Assembly (NCBI GenBank): GCA_017620335.1
Contig: JAFZQO010000023.1
Coordinates: 62,001 to 126,000 of the forward strand
Direction of reading: 5' to 3'
Source of the DNA: Bacteroidales bacterium
GTDB taxonomy: Bacteria; Bacteroidota; Bacteroidia; Bacteroidales; UBA932
Length of the DNA stretch: 64,000 bases
The notes beneath the pieces were generated by a model that saw nothing but the letters and a program-made list of their open reading frames with translations, was not told the origin of the DNA and did no database searches. Below, piece by piece: positions 41,505 to 49,028 of this stretch (within the stretch, counting starts at the first letter, position 1; each line of letters starts with the position of its first letter). Both the position numbers and the translations under genes were made by a program.

Positions 41505-41528
41505 GATAAAATATTTAAAAATTCCTTG

Positions 41529-41565
41529 CAAAAATAGGAAAATCGCCGGTAAAAACCTATTTTTG
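41529..41565. promoter_or_regulatory. Divergent promoter boxes forming an inverted repeat
   Basis: CAAAAATAGG (41529-41538) and CCTATTTTTG (41556-41565) are exact inverted repeats 17 nt apart. Each contains TATTTTTG, one directed at DUF4293 and one at the LeuA-like gene, whose leader would be about 65 nt. Confidence 0.6.
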
Positions 41566-41601
41566 TAAGAAATGCCCTTATCTGTATCAGTCCGGGCGTT
41601 T

Positions 41602-41635: not shown

Positions 41636-43054
41636 ATGGAACGCAAGATCTATGTCAGCGACGTTACCATGAAGCAGGCCCATGGCCTGTCCGGGGAGTC
41701 GTTGTCCTTCCGCCAGAAAATAGAACTCGCCAAACTCCTGGACAGGCTCGGAGTGTCTGTCATCGAGTCCGCGCCCATCCTTAACGGCAGGTCCGACAGC
41801 CTTCTGGTGAAATCTCTCGCTTCCGCCGTCAGGGACAGCGTCCTGGCGGTCCCGGTGGATATAATGGACGAGGCCAGCGTAGCGCTGGCGTGGAGCGCTC
41901 TCTGCGGTGCCGCGCATCCGCGCCTCCAGGTCTGCGTCCCCGTCAGCACGGTGCAGATGGAGTATCTTTGCCACCGCAAGCCCGCCGACATCCTGAAACT
42001 GATCGCCTCGCAGGTGGCTGCGTGCGCCGCCCTCTGCCCTGAGGTGGAGTTCGTCGCCGAGGACTTCGGCCGCAGCGACCAGGCCTTCCTTTCCGAGGCC
42101 GTCGCCACCGCCGCCGCCGCCGGCGCCGGCTTAGTAACCGTTTGCGACGCCGCCGGCAACCTCCTTCCCGACGAGTTCCACGCCTCCGTCTCCGAGGCGC
42201 GCAAGGCCCTTCCTGAGGGCGTCCGCCTGGGCGTCTATTGCTCCAACCTCATGTTCCAGGCCGACTCCTGCGCCATCGCCGCCGTCCGTGCCGGCGCCGA
42301 CGAGATCAAGACCATGCCCTATGGCAATACCACGGTGTCCCTCAAGCGTTTCGTCAAGATACTGGACGCCAAGTCCGACCTGTGCAATGCGAGAAGCGGT
42401 GTCCGTGTCATCGACCTGGAGCGCACCGTGGGCCGCATCAAGGTCCTGTGCGAGGCCCGCAGCTCCAAGTCCTCCAAGCCCCTCGAGGGGCTGGACATAG
42501 ACCGCGACGCCCTGACGCTCACCATCCACGACGACCGCGAGGCGGTCCTCAAGGTAGTTTCCAAGCTGGGTTACGACCTCGGTGAGGAAGATGCAGCCCG
42601 CGTGTATGACACTTTCGTGCGCATCGCTTCCAAGAGCGATACGGTGGAGGCCAAGGAACTCGACGCCATTGTGGCGTCCGTGGCTTACCAGGTGCCTCCG
42701 ACCTACCGTCTGGAGAGTTACGTCATTAATTCAGGCAACATCATCTCCGCCACCTGCCACCTGCGCCTGCGCAAGGGTGACGGCGTACTCGAGAGCGTTT
42801 GCGTGGGCGACGGCCCCGTGGACGCCGCGTTCCAGGCCGTGGACAAGGTCGTCGGCCGCCAGTATGAACTGGACGATTTCCAGATCCGCTCCGTCGCCGA
42901 GGGCCGCGAGGCCGTGGGCGAGGCCGTGGTCCGTCTCCGCTTCGGCGGAAAGGTCTATTCCGGCCGCGGCGTGTCCCGCGACATCGTGGGCTCCAGCCTG
43001 ATGGCCTATCTCAACGCCGTCAACAAGATGGCATACGAGGAGGGTGAGGCATGA
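41636..43054 (+). CDS. LeuA/HMGL-like TIM-barrel protein lacking metal ligands
   Basis: A 472-residue protein with the two-domain layout of 2-isopropylmalate synthase: an HMGL-like barrel (about 1-260), a linker, and a LeuA regulatory dimer domain (about 355-465, RLESYVINSGN and VYSGRGVSRDIVGSSLMAYL). The family's key motifs are altered. The RDGEQ block reads KQAHG (13-17), replacing the catalytic Arg and the first metal Asp, and the HxHND metal motif reads YCSNL (201-205). AEDFGRSD (141-148) still matches LeuA. It is probably not a classical Claisen condensing enzyme. It overlaps the next gene as ATGA and leads a likely operon with the fused acyl-CoA synthetase and PFOR. Confidence 0.75.
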   Translation: MERKIYVSDVTMKQAHGLSGESLSFRQKIELAKLLDRLGVSVIESAPILNGRSDSLLVKSLASAVRDSVLAVPVDIMDEASVALAWSALCGAAHPRLQVCVPVSTVQMEYLCHRKPADILKLIASQVAACAALCPEVEFVAEDFGRSDQAFLSEAVATAAAAGAGLVTVCDAAGNLLPDEFHASVSEARKALPEGVRLGVYCSNLMFQADSCAIAAVRAGADEIKTMPYGNTTVSLKRFVKILDAKSDLCNARSGVRVIDLERTVGRIKVLCEARSSKSSKPLEGLDIDRDALTLTIHDDREAVLKVVSKLGYDLGEEDAARVYDTFVRIASKSDTVEAKELDAIVASVAYQVPPTYRLESYVINSGNIISATCHLRLRKGDGVLESVCVGDGPVDAAFQAVDKVVGRQYELDDFQIRSVAEGREAVGEAVVRLRFGGKVYSGRGVSRDIVGSSLMAYLNAVNKMAYEEGEA

Positions 43055-45537
43055 GACTGTCGTTTTCCACACGCGGATGGATGGACCTCGCATGGGAGGA
43101 CATCCTCGAGAGCGCCTGCGAGATGCGTTTCACGGGCGTCGAGTTCTACAATGTGCTCAAGTATCCCGGATTCACCGGCAAAGGAGGCCCTTTCCACAAA
43201 TATTCCGTCGCCGCGTCCTACAGGGACCTGCGCGAGCGTGACCTGCTGATACCCTGCTTCGACTCCTCCAATGACCTTTCCGAGGAGAACGAAGCCATGC
43301 TGGGGGAGATGGAGGCGCTCATCCGCCTCGCCGCCGACATGCGTTCGCCTTATGTGTGCGCCTATGCGCACTCGGACGCCCCTGAAATCATACGCCGCAA
43401 CCTGTCGCGCCTTGTGCCCGTCGCCGAGGCTTGCGGCATCACCATCCTCATCAAGACCAGCGGCATCTATGCCGACACCGCGCTCCTGCGCGACCTGATG
43501 AACGATTTCGCCTGCGACCAGCTGGCGGCTTTGTGGGACGTCCACCATCCCTACAGGGACAAGGGCGAGAGTCCCGCACAGTCCATAAACAACCTCGGAG
43601 CCTATGTCAAGCACGTCCACCTGCGCGACAGCGACGAGGCGGGTGCCTACACCGTCATCGGCGAAGGCAACTTCCCGGTGGGGGAGGTCATGAACGCCCT
43701 CGCGTCCATCGACTACGACGGTTTCGTGTCGCTCGAATGGAAGCCCGAGTGGATGGAGGACCTCACCGACAGGGAGGTCATCTTCCCGCATTTCGTCAAT
43801 TACATGGAGCGTTTCGAACGCTCCCGCGACAAGAAGACCAAGCTTTATCCCAACCACGACGGGACAGGCTTCTATATCTGGAAGAAGGACGAACTCATCG
43901 ACCTCACCTTCCCCCAGGTCCTGGACCGCGTCACGGACGAATTCCCCGACCAGTACTGTTTCAAGTACACGACCCTGGACTATACCCGCACCTACGAGGA
44001 GTTCCGCAGGGACGTGGACGACTTCGCGCGCGCGCTCGTGTCCCTGGGCGTGAAGGCAGGCTCGAAGGTCACGATTTGGGCCACCAACGTTCCCGCCTGG
44101 TATATCACCTTCTGGGCGGCCACCAGGATAGGCGCGGTATTGGTGACAATGAACACCGCCTACAAGATCCATGAGGCGGAGTACCTCCTGCGCCAGTCCG
44201 ACACGCATACGCTGGTCATGATAGAGAACGCCCTCGACTCCAATTACCGCAAGATCATCAACGAACTCTGTCCGGAGATCGCGGAGAGCGAGGCGGGCAA
44301 GCCGCTGCATTGCTCCAGGCTGCCTTTCCTGCGCAACGTCATCACCGTGGGATTCCGCCAGAAGGGCTGCCTGACCTTCGAGGAGGCGATGGCCCGGGCG
44401 GACATGGTCCCGCGCGAGACGACCGCGGCCATGGCCGCCGCCGTGCGCCCGGACGACGTCTGCAACATGCAGTACACATCCGGAACGACAGGATTCCCTA
44501 AGGGAGTCATGCTGACCCACTTCAACGTCGTGAACAACGGCAAGTGCATCGGCGACCGCATGGGACTCTCCACGGCCGACCGCATGATGATACAGGTGCC
44601 GATGTTCCACTGCTTCGGCATGGTCCTTTCGATGACTTCTTCCATGACGCACGGCGCCACGATGTGCCCGATGCCCTATTTCTCGGCCAAGTCGTCGCTT
44701 GCGTGCATCAACCAGGAGCGCATCACCTGCTTCAACGGCGTGCCTACGATGTTCATCGCCATGTTCAACCATCCCGACTACCGCAGGACGGACTTCTCGC
44801 ACATGCGCACGGGCATCATGGCCGGTTCCGGCTGCCCGCCCGAGCTGATGAAGAGGGCCGCGCGTGAGGACGAGATGCACATGGTGGGCATAGTCAGCGT
44901 GTACGGCCAGACCGAGACCGCCCCGGGCAATACCATGTCCGCCTGGACCGATCCGCTGGACGTCCGTACGGAAACGGTGGGATATGCATTCCCGCACGTA
45001 AGGTGCAAGGTCGTCGACCCCGAGACGGGGCTCGAGGTGCCTCCGGGAGTGAACGGGGAGTTCTGCGCGAAGGGGTACAATACCATGAAGGGATACTACA
45101 AGATGCCAGAGGCTACGGTCCAGACCATCGACAAGGACGGCTGGCTGCACTCCGGCGATCTCGCCTGCGCCGACGAGAGGGGCAACTACCGCATCACCGG
45201 CCGCCTGAAGGACATGATCATCCGCGGCGGCGAGAACCTTTATCCCAAGGAGATAGAGGAGTTCATCTATACGCATCCCAAGGTGAAGGACGTCCAGGTC
45301 ATAGGCGTCCCCGACAAGAAGTATGGCGAGGAGGCCATGGCATGCATCGTCCTGAAGGAGGGTGAATCCGTCACGGAGGACGAGATGCGCGCCTTCATCA
45401 CGGCCAGCCTCGCGCGGCACAAGGTGCCCAAATACATTGACTTCGTCGAAGGCTTCCCGATGAATGCCGCCGGCAAGATCCTCAAGTACAAGATGCGCGA
45501 GGAGGCCGTGGCGAAGTATGGTCTTGACAAACAGTAG
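43051..45537 (+). CDS. Fusion of sugar-isomerase-type TIM barrel and acyl-CoA synthetase
   Basis: An 828-residue fusion. Residues 1-260 are a xylose-isomerase-like barrel with metal-ligand candidates Asp163 (LWDVHHPY), His190 (HVHLRD) and Glu229 (SLEWKPEW). The first ligand Glu of this fold is replaced (LIKTSG, Lys135). Residues 285-828 are a full AMP-forming acyl-CoA synthetase with YTSGTTGFPKG (475-485), VYGQTE, the hinge GRLKDMIIRGGENLYPKEIE and the C-terminal catalytic lysine in AAGKILKYK. Such ligases activate carboxylic acids to CoA thioesters. The fatty-acid type is closest by the motif MFHCFGMV. It overlaps the LeuA-like gene by 4 nt and ends 5 nt before nifJ. The substrate is unknown. 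Confidence 0.82.
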   Translation: MRLSFSTRGWMDLAWEDILESACEMRFTGVEFYNVLKYPGFTGKGGPFHKYSVAASYRDLRERDLLIPCFDSSNDLSEENEAMLGEMEALIRLAADMRSPYVCAYAHSDAPEIIRRNLSRLVPVAEACGITILIKTSGIYADTALLRDLMNDFACDQLAALWDVHHPYRDKGESPAQSINNLGAYVKHVHLRDSDEAGAYTVIGEGNFPVGEVMNALASIDYDGFVSLEWKPEWMEDLTDREVIFPHFVNYMERFERSRDKKTKLYPNHDGTGFYIWKKDELIDLTFPQVLDRVTDEFPDQYCFKYTTLDYTRTYEEFRRDVDDFARALVSLGVKAGSKVTIWATNVPAWYITFWAATRIGAVLVTMNTAYKIHEAEYLLRQSDTHTLVMIENALDSNYRKIINELCPEIAESEAGKPLHCSRLPFLRNVITVGFRQKGCLTFEEAMARADMVPRETTAAMAAAVRPDDVCNMQYTSGTTGFPKGVMLTHFNVVNNGKCIGDRMGLSTADRMMIQVPMFHCFGMVLSMTSSMTHGATMCPMPYFSAKSSLACINQERITCFNGVPTMFIAMFNHPDYRRTDFSHMRTGIMAGSGCPPELMKRAAREDEMHMVGIVSVYGQTETAPGNTMSAWTDPLDVRTETVGYAFPHVRCKVVDPETGLEVPPGVNGEFCAKGYNTMKGYYKMPEATVQTIDKDGWLHSGDLACADERGNYRITGRLKDMIIRGGENLYPKEIEEFIYTHPKVKDVQVIGVPDKKYGEEAMACIVLKEGESVTEDEMRAFITASLARHKVPKYIDFVEGFPMNAAGKILKYKMREEAVAKYGLDKQ

Positions 45538-45542
45538 GTTGA

Positions 45543-48500
45543 ATGAGAAAGACAGTGACGATGGACGGCAATGAAGCCGCCGCGAACATAGCTTATGAGT
45601 TTACCGAGATAGCCGCGATCTATCCCATCACGCCCTCTTCCCCGATGGCGGAGCACACCGACTTCTGGTCCGCCAAGGGGCGGAAGAACGTCTTCGGACA
45701 GCCCGTCACCGTGGTGGAGATGCAGTCCGAGGCAGGCGCCATTGCGGCCGTGCACGGCGCGGCCCAGACCGGCACGCTGGCCACGAGCTTCACTTCCAGC
45801 CAGGGTCTCATGCTCATGATACCGGTGCTTCACCGCATCGCGGGCGAACGCCTTCCTGTCGTCCTTCACGTGGCGGCCCGCACCGTCGGCACTCACGCCA
45901 TGAGCATCTTCGGCGACCATTCCGACGTCATGTGCTGCCGCAACACCGGCTTCGCGATGCTCTGTACGGGCAGCGTGCAGGAGGTTATGGACCTCTCGGC
46001 GGTGGCCCACCTCGCGGCCGTGAAGGGCCGCACGCCTTTCATGCATTTCTTCGACGGTTTCCGCACCTCTCACGAGATCAGCACCGTAGAGCAGATCGAT
46101 GCCGAGGCGCTGCGAGGCCTCCTTGACAGGGAGGCGCTGGCTGCGTTCCGCGCCCGCGCTCTGAGCCCCGAGCATCCGCTGATGCGCAGCACCGTTCAGA
46201 ATTCCGACATTTTCTTCCAGGCCCGCGAGGCCTGCAATCCCTACTACGACGCCCTTCCGGGTATCGTGGAGGAATATTTCGGGCAGGTCAACGCCCTGAC
46301 GGGCAGGGACTACCGCCTGTTCAATTACTACGGCGCCCAGGACGCTACGGACGTCGTCGTCGCCATGGGCAGTGTGTCCGGTGCGGTGCGCGAGGCCGTG
46401 GACGCCCTGAACCGTGCGGGGAAGAAGACAGGCTTCGTACAGGTTCACCTGTACAGACCTTTCAGCGCTGAGCACCTTCTCGCCGCGCTTCCGGAGAGCG
46501 TGCGCCGCATCGCGGTGCTCGACCGCTGCAAGGAGCCCGGCAGCGCAGGCGAACCCCTCTACGAGGATGTCTGCACCGTTCTCTCGCAGGCCGGCCGCGA
46601 CGTGGCTGTCGTCGGAGGACGTTACGGCCTTTCCTCAAAGGACACGGATCCGGGACAGATCCTCTCCGTTTTCGCGAACCTCTCCTCGGAAGCCCCGAAA
46701 AACGGCTTCACAATCGGCATAACCGACGACGTGACTGGACTCTCCCTCCCTTCGCTCCCTTACGGGGACGACGCTTCCGGAGTGTACTCCTGCAAGTTCT
46801 GGGGCCTGGGCGGCGACGGCACCGTGGGAGCAAACAAGAATACCGTCCACATCGTCAGCGACCTGTCCGGCATGTACGGCCAGGCCTATTTCGAGTATGA
46901 CGCCAAGAAGTCGTTCGGCGTCACCAAGTCCCACCTGCGCTTCGGAAAGAAGCCCGTGGAGAGCTCCTATTATGTGAAGAAGGCGGATTTCATCGCCTGC
47001 CACAACCAGACATACATCGGGCAGTACGACATAGTTTCCGAACTCAAGGACGGAGGCGTTTTCCTGCTGAACTGCAGCCGTACCGGGGCAGACCTGGAGG
47101 CCTGGCTGCCGGATGACGTCAAGCGCACGCTGGCCCTCAGGCACGCGCGCTTCCATGTCATCGACGCCACGGCCATAGCCCTGCGCCTCGGTCTCGGCAG
47201 CCACACCAATACCGTGCTTCAGGCGGCATTCTTCGCCGCCACAGGCATTATCGGCACCGAAGAGGCGCTGGAGGCCATGAAGGCGGCCGCGCGGAAGACC
47301 TACTTCGCCAAGGGCGACGAGGTCGTGGCGCGCAATGTCGCCGCCGTAGAGGCCGGCGCCGCGGAGGTGACGGAGGTCACCGTCCCGGCGGCATGGGCCT
47401 CGCTGCCCGCAGGCCCCGAAGAGGACCTCTCCGGCCTGCCTGCCGCGGTGCGCGGACTCCTTCTGCCCATCAACCGCCAGAAAGGGGACGACCTGCCTGT
47501 CAGCAGTTTCGTCGACTACGTGGACGGCTGTGCGCCTTACGGGCTTACCGCCTACGAGAAGAGGGGTATCGCCGTCAAGGTACCTCACTGGCATTCAGAC
47601 AAGTGCATACAGTGCAACCGCTGCTCCTTCGTCTGCCCTCACGCCGTCATCAGGCCGTATCTGCTGGATGACGCCGAGAAGGCGGCCGCGCCGGAGGGCT
47701 TCGCCACCATCCCGGCCAACGGCCGCGCCAAGGGCCTCCATTTCGCTCTGGCGGTATCGGAGCTCGACTGCACCGGCTGCGGGAGCTGCGCCCAGAGCTG
47801 CCCTTCGGGCGCGCTGGAGATGGTCCCCGCCGCCCCTGACGCCTCCAATCGCGCCTGCTTCGACTATGCCCTCGGCCTGAAGGACAAGGGCGACGTCTTT
47901 GACCCTTATACCGTCAAGGGAAGCCAGTTCCGCCGTCCCCTGCTGGAGTTCTCGGCGGCCTGCGCCGGCTGCGGCGAGACGCCGTACGCCAAGCTCCTGA
48001 CCCAGCTCTTCGGAGACAGGGTTTACTGGGCCAACGCCACGGGCTGCTCTCAGGCCTGGGGCGCCGCCATGCCCGGCATCCCTTATACAGTCAACGGCCG
48101 CGGCTTCGGCCCTGCATGGACCAACAGCCTCTTCGAAAACAACGCCGAGCTCTGCCTGGGCATGTGCCTGTCCGTGAAGCAGCGGCGGGCCGTGCTGCGG
48201 GAGAAGGCCGAAGCCTTCGCCACCGCAGCCGCCGGCCCGCTCAAGGAGGCTCTCGACGCCTTCCTGGCCGCCTTCGACGACCTGTCGGCCTCGCGCACCG
48301 CGGCCGACGCGCTCATCCCTCTCCTTGAGGAGGATGGGAGCGCCGCCGCCCTCGAGCTCCTTTCCATGCGTGACCAGTTCTCCCGCAAGACCTTCTGGAT
48401 GTACGGCGGCGACGGCTGGGCTTATGACATCGGTTTCGGAGGCCTGGACCACGTCATAGCCAGCGGCGAGAACGTCAACGTCTTCATCGTCGACACCGAA

Positions 48501-49028
48501 GTTTACTCCAATACCGGAGGCCAGAGCAGCAAGGCAACCCCTCTCGGTGCGGTGGCGAAGTTCGCATCTTCCGGAAAGAAGAACCGCAAGAAGGACCTCG
48601 GTGCCATCCTCATGACCTATGGCTACGTCTATGTCGCCCAGGTTGCCATGGGAGCCGACCCTGCCCAGCTCGTCAAGGCCGTGAAGGAGGCCGAGGAGTA
48701 CGACGGTCCTTCCGTCATCATCGCTTACACCCCCTGCTCGTCCCACGGCATCTGCATTGGCATGCACAGGGTTCAGGAGGAGATGAAAAGGGCCGTGGAC
48801 AGCGGCTACTGGCTGCTTTACCGCTATGATCCCCGCAAGGAGCATCCTTTCCATCTCGACTCCAAGGCTCCTACCATGCCTTACACCGAGTTCCTCGACG
48901 GCGAGGTGAGATACGCCTCCCTGCGCCGCAGCTTCCCCGAGAACGCCGAGAGGCTTTTCGCCCGTGGCAGCGAGGATGCAGAGCAGCGCTACAAAAAATA
49001 TAGCGACAGGGAAAAGGAAAATCGCTGA
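45543..49028 (+). CDS. nifJ: Pyruvate:ferredoxin (flavodoxin) oxidoreductase
   Basis: An 1161-residue single-chain PFOR with all domains. The N-terminal alpha domain starts MDGNEAAANIAYEFTEIAAI with YPITPSSPMAEH. Then come the gamma domain (KFWGLGGDGTVGANKN, about 418-433) and a two-cluster ferredoxin domain (CIQCNRCSFVCP at about 688, CTGCGSCAQSCP at about 743). Last is the thiamine-diphosphate domain with CAGCGETPY (about 807, third cluster) and GGDGWAYDIGFGG. PFOR converts pyruvate and CoA to acetyl-CoA, CO2 and reduced ferredoxin, reversibly. It starts 5 nt after the fused ligase, so it is probably cotranscribed. A keto acid other than pyruvate is possible given the neighbours. Confidence 0.93.
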   Translation: MRKTVTMDGNEAAANIAYEFTEIAAIYPITPSSPMAEHTDFWSAKGRKNVFGQPVTVVEMQSEAGAIAAVHGAAQTGTLATSFTSSQGLMLMIPVLHRIAGERLPVVLHVAARTVGTHAMSIFGDHSDVMCCRNTGFAMLCTGSVQEVMDLSAVAHLAAVKGRTPFMHFFDGFRTSHEISTVEQIDAEALRGLLDREALAAFRARALSPEHPLMRSTVQNSDIFFQAREACNPYYDALPGIVEEYFGQVNALTGRDYRLFNYYGAQDATDVVVAMGSVSGAVREAVDALNRAGKKTGFVQVHLYRPFSAEHLLAALPESVRRIAVLDRCKEPGSAGEPLYEDVCTVLSQAGRDVAVVGGRYGLSSKDTDPGQILSVFANLSSEAPKNGFTIGITDDVTGLSLPSLPYGDDASGVYSCKFWGLGGDGTVGANKNTVHIVSDLSGMYGQAYFEYDAKKSFGVTKSHLRFGKKPVESSYYVKKADFIACHNQTYIGQYDIVSELKDGGVFLLNCSRTGADLEAWLPDDVKRTLALRHARFHVIDATAIALRLGLGSHTNTVLQAAFFAATGIIGTEEALEAMKAAARKTYFAKGDEVVARNVAAVEAGAAEVTEVTVPAAWASLPAGPEEDLSGLPAAVRGLLLPINRQKGDDLPVSSFVDYVDGCAPYGLTAYEKRGIAVKVPHWHSDKCIQCNRCSFVCPHAVIRPYLLDDAEKAAAPEGFATIPANGRAKGLHFALAVSELDCTGCGSCAQSCPSGALEMVPAAPDASNRACFDYALGLKDKGDVFDPYTVKGSQFRRPLLEFSAACAGCGETPYAKLLTQLFGDRVYWANATGCSQAWGAAMPGIPYTVNGRGFGPAWTNSLFENNAELCLGMCLSVKQRRAVLREKAEAFATAAAGPLKEALDAFLAAFDDLSASRTAADALIPLLEEDGSAAALELLSMRDQFSRKTFWMYGGDGWAYDIGFGGLDHVIASGENVNVFIVDTEVYSNTGGQSSKATPLGAVAKFASSGKKNRKKDLGAILMTYGYVYVAQVAMGADPAQLVKAVKEAEEYDGPSVIIAYTPCSSHGICIGMHRVQEEMKRAVDSGYWLLYRYDPRKEHPFHLDSKAPTMPYTEFLDGEVRYASLRRSFPENAERLFARGSEDAEQRYKKYSDREKENR

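Follow-up and report, generated by a model that had tools for sequence, protein, structure and literature searches.

A candidate leucine bypass encoded by a LeuA-like pseudo-synthase, a barrel–ligase fusion and a PFOR paralogue in gut Bacteroidales and Clostridia

Three adjacent genes at positions 41636-49028 of a 64-kb stretch of a Bacteroidales genome (contig JAFZQO010000023.1; the whole stretch of 64,000 nucleotides is called the window below) are best read, in our opinion, as a leucine bypass that would replace 2-isopropylmalate synthase (LeuA). On sequence evidence we give this reading a probability of roughly 0.6. The genes encode LEUAL, a LeuA-like pseudo-synthase; FUS, a fusion of a TIM barrel with an AMP-forming acyl-CoA ligase; and a paralogue of pyruvate:ferredoxin oxidoreductase (PFOR). 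The route would run from isovalerate through isovaleryl-CoA and 2-oxoisocaproate to leucine. In a first, ATP-consuming step the ligase part of FUS would form the CoA ester of a scavenged branched-chain acid, most likely isovalerate; the cassette PFOR, or VOR in some Clostridia, would carboxylate isovaleryl-CoA reductively to 2-oxoisocaproate in a ferredoxin-linked reaction, and an aminotransferase (IlvE in the Clostridial clusters) would convert this keto acid to leucine.

A ligase, a ferredoxin-linked 2-oxoacid synthase and an aminotransferase provide all the steps from an acid to an amino acid, which makes a bypass the likeliest reading, and leucine is favoured as the product because the Bacteroidales carriers seem otherwise unable to make it and because a leucine-type sensor accompanies the enzymes. 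An earlier note on this DNA had suggested that an acid might be converted to an acyl-CoA, and this to a 2-keto acid, through reductive carboxylation, and with a gene order conserved across two phyla this still appears to be the best-supported reading. Beyond that note, we report the rarity of LeuA in carriers, the IlvE and VOR neighbours and the altered PFOR pocket, and we infer the substrate and direction of the route, its likely product leucine, a contact between LEUAL and FUS, and a sensor role of LEUAL in leucine feedback. The features of the cassette are as follows.

41558..41566, + strand: -7-like promoter element of Bacteroidales type, TATTTTTGT, before the cassette (pattern match)
41528-41536, - strand: divergent -7-like element, TATTTTTGC, before a DUF4293 gene (pattern match)
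41636..43054, + strand: LEUAL, LeuA-like pseudo-synthase, 472 amino acids, HMGL-like barrel without the LeuA metal ligands
42644..43030, + strand: LeuA_dimer allosteric domain of LEUAL, residues 337-465
43051..45537, + strand: FUS, TIM-barrel/AMP-forming acyl-CoA ligase fusion, 828 amino acids
43051..43860, + strand: AP_endonuc_2 (xylose-isomerase-like) barrel of FUS, putative tetrad K135-D163-H190-E229
43861..45534, + strand: ANL-type acyl-CoA ligase part of FUS, conserved motifs intact
45543..49028, + strand: cassette-specific PFOR paralogue, 1161 amino acids
45900..45902, + strand: PFOR Met120, at the position of Leu121 of Desulfovibrio africanus PFOR (DaPFOR; +1 offset)
46194..46196, + strand: PFOR Val218, at the position of DaPFOR Ala219
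48054..48056, + strand: PFOR Ala838, at the position of DaPFOR Ile843

The three open reading frames, read from the sequence, are complete, and their coordinates bear out the tight coupling described in the earlier note: LEUAL and FUS share a 4-nucleotide (nt) ATGA overlap, and FUS and PFOR are separated by a gap of 5 nt. The divergent promoter described there is likewise supported by the -7-like elements on both strands upstream, which match the pattern TAnnTTTGY, taken here to be the Bacteroidales -7 promoter element. This pattern occurs 21 times on the two strands of the window versus 4.6 expected, several times as divergent pairs, and its sole + strand match inside the cassette, at 41963, lies within the LEUAL gene. 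The same pattern scan found no promoter-like element between PFOR and the nucleoside phosphorylase gene downstream. That gene stands at this place only in the window and two near relatives (a cluster of three loci) and is consequently not counted as a member of the cassette. Scanning the window for Rfam families and tRNAs gave no matches.

LEUAL shares with LeuA (TIGR00973) an HMGL-like barrel and a LeuA_dimer domain, both recognised by Pfam, and judged by its sequence it is clearly a descendant of LeuA. It differs from LeuA by the loss of the metal ligands and of an active-site segment, and it stays under the cut-offs of all LeuA models of NCBIfam (best score 262.8 bits versus a cut-off of 532; TIGR00973, 227.9 versus 598.7). 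The loss of the metal sites, already noticed in the window, extends to the family: the Asp of RDG, both His of HxH and the Asn of GERAGN, which we take to be the metal ligands of LeuA, and also the His of GIHQDG have been substituted in almost every one of 64 members. In these 64 sequences the Asp has given way to Gln, Glu, Lys, Leu and others, the first His is variable, and the Asn is mostly Thr (28); only the second His has a fixed substitute, Ser (46/64). The metal-ligand residues and the sub-cut-off scores thus rule out a working synthase. The allosteric domain, by contrast with the LeuA models, scores well above its threshold (PF08502, 96.8 bits versus 24.9), its GDGPxDAAF and GRGxSTDI motifs are near-invariant across the family, and most of the invariant columns of LEUAL fall within it. 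This sensor domain matches LeuA-type proteins with E values of about 1e-21 to 6e-13, but the second, CimA-scoring proteins with about 2e-5 to 7e-4 only.

LEUAL was found in nine of 250 genomes of the window's genus, the window's own included (E <= 1e-25), and the other eight copies are about 52-90% identical to that of the window. When named genomes were scanned, 63 LEUAL loci turned up, distributed over Bacteroidales and Clostridia of the gut or rumen, many of the latter labelled Oscillospiraceae; five genus carriers and five of the named loci (L083-L085, L088, L094) seem to represent identical contigs. In 59 of the 63 loci the TIM domain of the fusion comes after LEUAL, with a gap of at most 30 nt in 53 of the 59, and the remaining four loci stop at a contig end no more than 103 nt from the LEUAL match. 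A PFOR gene lies no more than 1.5 kb from the ligase in all 12 named Bacteroidales loci and in 12 of the 51 Clostridial ones. The flanks of the cassette are common to the nearest relatives only, while the core is retained, and a gene order kept in two phyla argues for more than chance. The earlier note would have taken neighbours limited to close relatives as a refutation; the result does not refute its reading, as the first two genes occur together in both Bacteroidales and Clostridia.

In a midpoint-rooted tree of LEUAL, the 15 Bacteroidales rows form one group (support 100/100) among the Clostridia, which suggests a single transfer of LEUAL into Bacteroidales. In the order to which locus L111 belongs, which we infer to be Oscillospirales, 53 of the 245 genomes analysed carry LEUAL; a long fusion match accompanies it in 49, G768, G840 and G889 have pieces only, and G888, in which LEUAL stands at a contig start, has no fusion match among those listed. 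Genome G788 is not counted as a carrier, because its match is a fragment with a score like that of true LeuA. One genome, G847, holds two LEUAL–fusion pairs (C34, C107), and L145:10001-11805 is a decayed cassette in which a LEUAL fragment runs into the TIM domain and the ligase is broken.

The distribution of true LeuA, defined as a TIGR00973 match over cut-off, is one of the indications that the cassette could stand in for this enzyme. True LeuA is encoded by 86 of the 250 genomes of the window's genus, but by none of the nine carriers (0/9 versus 86/241). Among the listed genus genomes with a CimA-type gene (at least 59), it is found in 0/6 carriers versus 49/53 others (p=4.7e-6); G079, one of the four listed CimA-type non-carriers without LeuA over cut-off, has a LeuA fragment. 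In the order of L111 the counts are 1/53 carriers versus 68/192 others (p=7e-8), and LeuA is absent from all 17 further carriers, which were chosen for having ilvC. The ilvC gene is retained in 13 Bacteroidales carriers, 12 of which also have a CimA-type gene. The window's genome, a draft of 96.6% completeness, contains ilvD-ilvB-ilvN-ilvC-leuC-leuD-cimA-leuB-aminotransferase, and its HMGL-like genes beside LEUAL are the CimA-type one (CimA, 635 bits, under the cut-off of 950, versus LeuA, 250 bits) and a partly matching one on C15.

The third gene had been described as a CoA-dependent keto-acid oxidoreductase, and it does encode a complete PFOR, with the full-length domain order and 1636 bits to TIGR02176 (cut-off 911). 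The cassette PFORs, whether from Bacteroidales or Clostridia, group in a single clade that is separate from the housekeeping PFORs; three loci first taken as housekeeping proved to be cassette copies and were excluded from the counts. A second PFOR is present in 10 of the 11 Bacteroidales genomes with a cassette PFOR, some of these genes being cut by contig ends, as is that of the window's genome (C36); G620 shows one PFOR only. The seven non-carrier Bacteroidales genomes compared have one PFOR each (7/7). The possibility that the cassette PFOR is the only housekeeping enzyme is thereby ruled out.

In DaPFOR, a narrow pocket is formed by Leu121, Ala219, Ile843, Asn996 and Met1202, and the equivalents of Ile843 and Asn996 influence PFOR specificity, according to the part of the publication available (PMC5020499). 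In all 24 cassette PFORs, positions 121, 219, 843 and 996 are occupied by Met, Val, Ala and Asn, versus Leu (21/21), Ala (14) or His (7), Ile (21/21) and Asn in 21 housekeeping PFORs, with the columns of Leu121 and Ala219 placed by a +1 offset; the window PFOR is shorter, and its alignment ends before Met1202. Three of the four testable residues of the pyruvate pocket are therefore altered, and the cassette PFOR does not have the residue set of the narrow DaPFOR pocket. The two enzymes share the full domain order and the carboxylate clamp: Thr31 and Arg114 have equivalents in all 24 cassette and 21 housekeeping PFORs, and together with Asn996 they are kept in the cassette copies as T30, R113 and N990 (24/24). 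They differ in clade and in the L121M, A219V and I843A equivalents. A smaller residue at 843 would suit a larger side chain, but Val at 219 exceeds Ala in size.

The fusion described from the window is recovered by Pfam as AP_endonuc_2, AMP-binding (PF00501, 299 bits) and AMP-binding_C (PF13193, 65.8 bits). Its ligase half, with PRK12583 as nearest NCBIfam model, is strongly conserved over 57 fusions, including the YTSGTTGFPKG, GRLKDMIIRGGEN and GKILKYKMRE regions, which are motifs of ANL ligases. Solved structures match the TIM half distantly only. The positions of its Glu-Asp-His-Glu tetrad, which we take to be the metal ligands of xylose-isomerase-like (AP_endonuc_2) enzymes, read KDHE in the window, and with Lys for Glu at the first position FUS lacks one of the four ligands of an isomerase. 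Over the 57 fusions of the LEUAL type the tetrad is EDHE in 6, KDHE in 25 and some other combination in 26. A sister family, FUS-B, forms a clade of its own next to these fusions and has EDHE in 16/16 sequences read. The barrel of the LEUAL-type fusions may be decaying from isomerase to scaffold. In some Clostridia (L109:13915-14724, L114, L115, L123) the gene immediately after the fusion encodes an Amidohydro_2 protein, as does the gene after one FUS-B (L250:2961-3758).

Parts of both barrels are nevertheless kept. The VSTVQMEYLCH region, D143, R146 and D171 of LEUAL are invariant or nearly so, so a ligand site may persist there, and W162 and D193 of the FUS barrel are invariant in the 57 fusions. 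Such residues would be expected if LEUAL and the fusion barrel were alive and catalysed a new, metal-independent reaction that makes the acid substrate of the ligase. This is very improbable, as the metal ligands and the GIHQDG segment were lost without fixed substitutes, Ser for the second His apart, and the invariant columns of LEUAL lie mostly in its allosteric domain.

Under the leucine bypass, LEUAL would no longer condense acetyl-CoA and would retain its leucine-type allosteric domain; its role would then be that of a feedback subunit acting on FUS, an assignment which we make tentatively. The HisG_S-HisZ ATP phosphoribosyltransferase, in the part of its literature available, offers an analogy in which a dead paralogue of another enzyme serves as regulatory subunit. 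HisZ is a dead synthetase paralogue. The folds and the pathway are different, and the contact between LEUAL and the ligase would be the counterpart that we propose. It is conceivable, although somewhat doubtful, that a dead LeuA was recruited as the leucine-sensing subunit of the fusion ligase, and that this module of sensor, ligase and retuned PFOR was passed between gut Clostridia and Bacteroidales as a replacement for LeuA.

The genes around the cassette were called by a codon-usage script, and IlvE and VOR were assigned by clustering with the L111 proteins tested against NCBIfam, of which IlvE and VorB score above their cut-offs. IlvE is present in 15 and VOR genes in 5 of the 51 Clostridial loci. 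The order is LEUAL-fusion-IlvE-PFOR in L091, L092 and L096, LEUAL-fusion-IlvE-Ploop-VorA-VorB in L111, L117 and L120, and VorABC-IlvE-LEUAL-fusion in L134; the VOR genes of L102 lie on the opposite strand, some 6 kb away. A ketol-acid reductoisomerase gene follows PFOR in L097 and L098 (the L097 copy was tested). In L117 a downstream ligase has MbcS as its best model (397 bits, under the cut-off of 850). Locus L079 reads, on one strand, cimA-leuB-aminotransferase-metY-metX-LEUAL-fusion-PFOR; here leuB and the MetY-type gene exceed their cut-offs, cimA and metX have CimA and MetX as best models with scores below the cut-offs, and the aminotransferase is named by likeness to its counterpart in L080.

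Two further families recur in these neighbourhoods. Helix-turn-helix (HTH)-cupin-like proteins, alone or fused to further AMP-forming ligases, are encoded near the cassette or the VOR genes (L100:13879-18502, L102:4349-9274, L092:18695-21058 and L111:18301-18852, the cupin part being tested in L111 only). A conserved P-loop-like protein of about 230-270 amino acids lies beside IlvE and VOR (L111:15014-15700, L117:12288-13019, L118, L120, L134); its L111 copy had no NCBIfam match and its L117 copy no Pfam match.

Several observations weigh against the leucine bypass. The genus carriers are related, so the effective sample is small; the carrier genomes are drafts; and G877 carries both LEUAL and LeuA. 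In the order of L111, ilvC is missing in 48/53 carriers versus 80/192 others, and among the ilvC-positive genomes of this order the LeuA counts (1/5 versus 42/112) do not differ significantly (p=0.65), so a specific exclusion of LeuA there is rejected. Most of these carriers may consequently be simple branched-chain amino acid auxotrophs, and the pattern in which only LeuA is gone rests on the Bacteroidales and the 17 further ilvC-positive carriers. Auxotrophy would fit a catabolic use of the genes, in which IlvE and VOR or PFOR oxidise leucine or another branched-chain amino acid to acyl-CoA and the ligase or LEUAL helps to remove the ester; the VOR and IlvE reactions are reversible in principle. 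However, AMP-forming ligases run toward activation, the window's genome lacks LeuA alone and keeps the rest of the pathway, and a leucine-type sensor domain suits feedback on synthesis, so that we consider catabolism unlikely.

Within the cassette, the PFOR far exceeds the cut-off of a pyruvate PFOR model, and the window's LEUAL reads GRGVSRDI, its STDI motif having R in place of T. A PFOR gene next to the fusion is missing in two of the nine genus carriers (G108, G126), and 26 of the 51 Clostridial loci, some of them cut by contig ends, have no PFOR, IlvE or VOR. FUS-B occurs without a LEUAL match in 45 of the 245 genomes of the order of L111, 20 of which carry true LeuA. Around the 16 FUS-B loci read (L235-L250, e.g. 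L236:7121-9781), where neighbours were inspected visually, using the first 70 residues of each, neither a branched-chain amino acid context nor a common neighbourhood was found. Stand-alone FUS-B rules out that the fusion is always paired with LEUAL, and the history of LEUAL thus does not prove the substrate of the ligase.

Methionine genes, moreover, flank the cassette in several loci: besides the MetY-type gene and metX of L079, there is MetX in L089 and L076, a MetA-type gene in L090, MetF-type and MetH-like genes in L077, and, in a Clostridial group, a MetH-like gene divergent from the cassette. These neighbours allow speculation that the same route yields another product, be it methionine from 3-methylthiopropionate, isoleucine from propionate or 2-methylbutyrate, or valine from isobutyrate; carriers without ilvC would indeed require all three branched-chain amino acids. 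We hold this to be rather unlikely, since ilvC in the 13 Bacteroidales carriers and the CimA-type gene in 12 of them cover valine and isoleucine, while the sensor is of the LeuA type and the missing enzyme is LeuA.

The chemistry of the leucine bypass is already known. The synthesis of leucine from isovalerate by carboxylation and amination in rumen anaerobes has been on record since the 1960s (cited in PMC7356843); no genes are named in the part of that source available, and the cassette offers candidates for them, together with an inactive LeuA and a PFOR paralogue of its own. The short branched-chain acyl-CoA synthetase of Staphylococcus aureus (MbcS; PMC10026030, available in part) is, like the FUS ligase, AMP-forming and acts on branched short acids; a relative is encoded in the L117 cluster, whereas the FUS ligase is nearest to PRK12583 and carries a TIM barrel. 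Among the titles and abstracts searched, with subscription journals and preprints outside that search, we found no description of the cassette, of a dead-LeuA sensor or of genes for the conversion of isovalerate to leucine.

The cassette supplies candidate genes for the rumen route from isovalerate to leucine and makes this question testable. The main text of GapMind does not mention isovalerate, isobutyrate or 2-methylbutyrate, and 60 genomes with ilv but without leu genes are tabulated as needing leucine in the accessible part of PMC9026213. The cassette could recast some predicted gut leucine auxotrophs as leucine makers dependent on the branched fatty acids of their neighbours. If true, LEUAL would plainly exemplify how a biosynthetic enzyme can persist solely as the sensor of the pathway that took its place.

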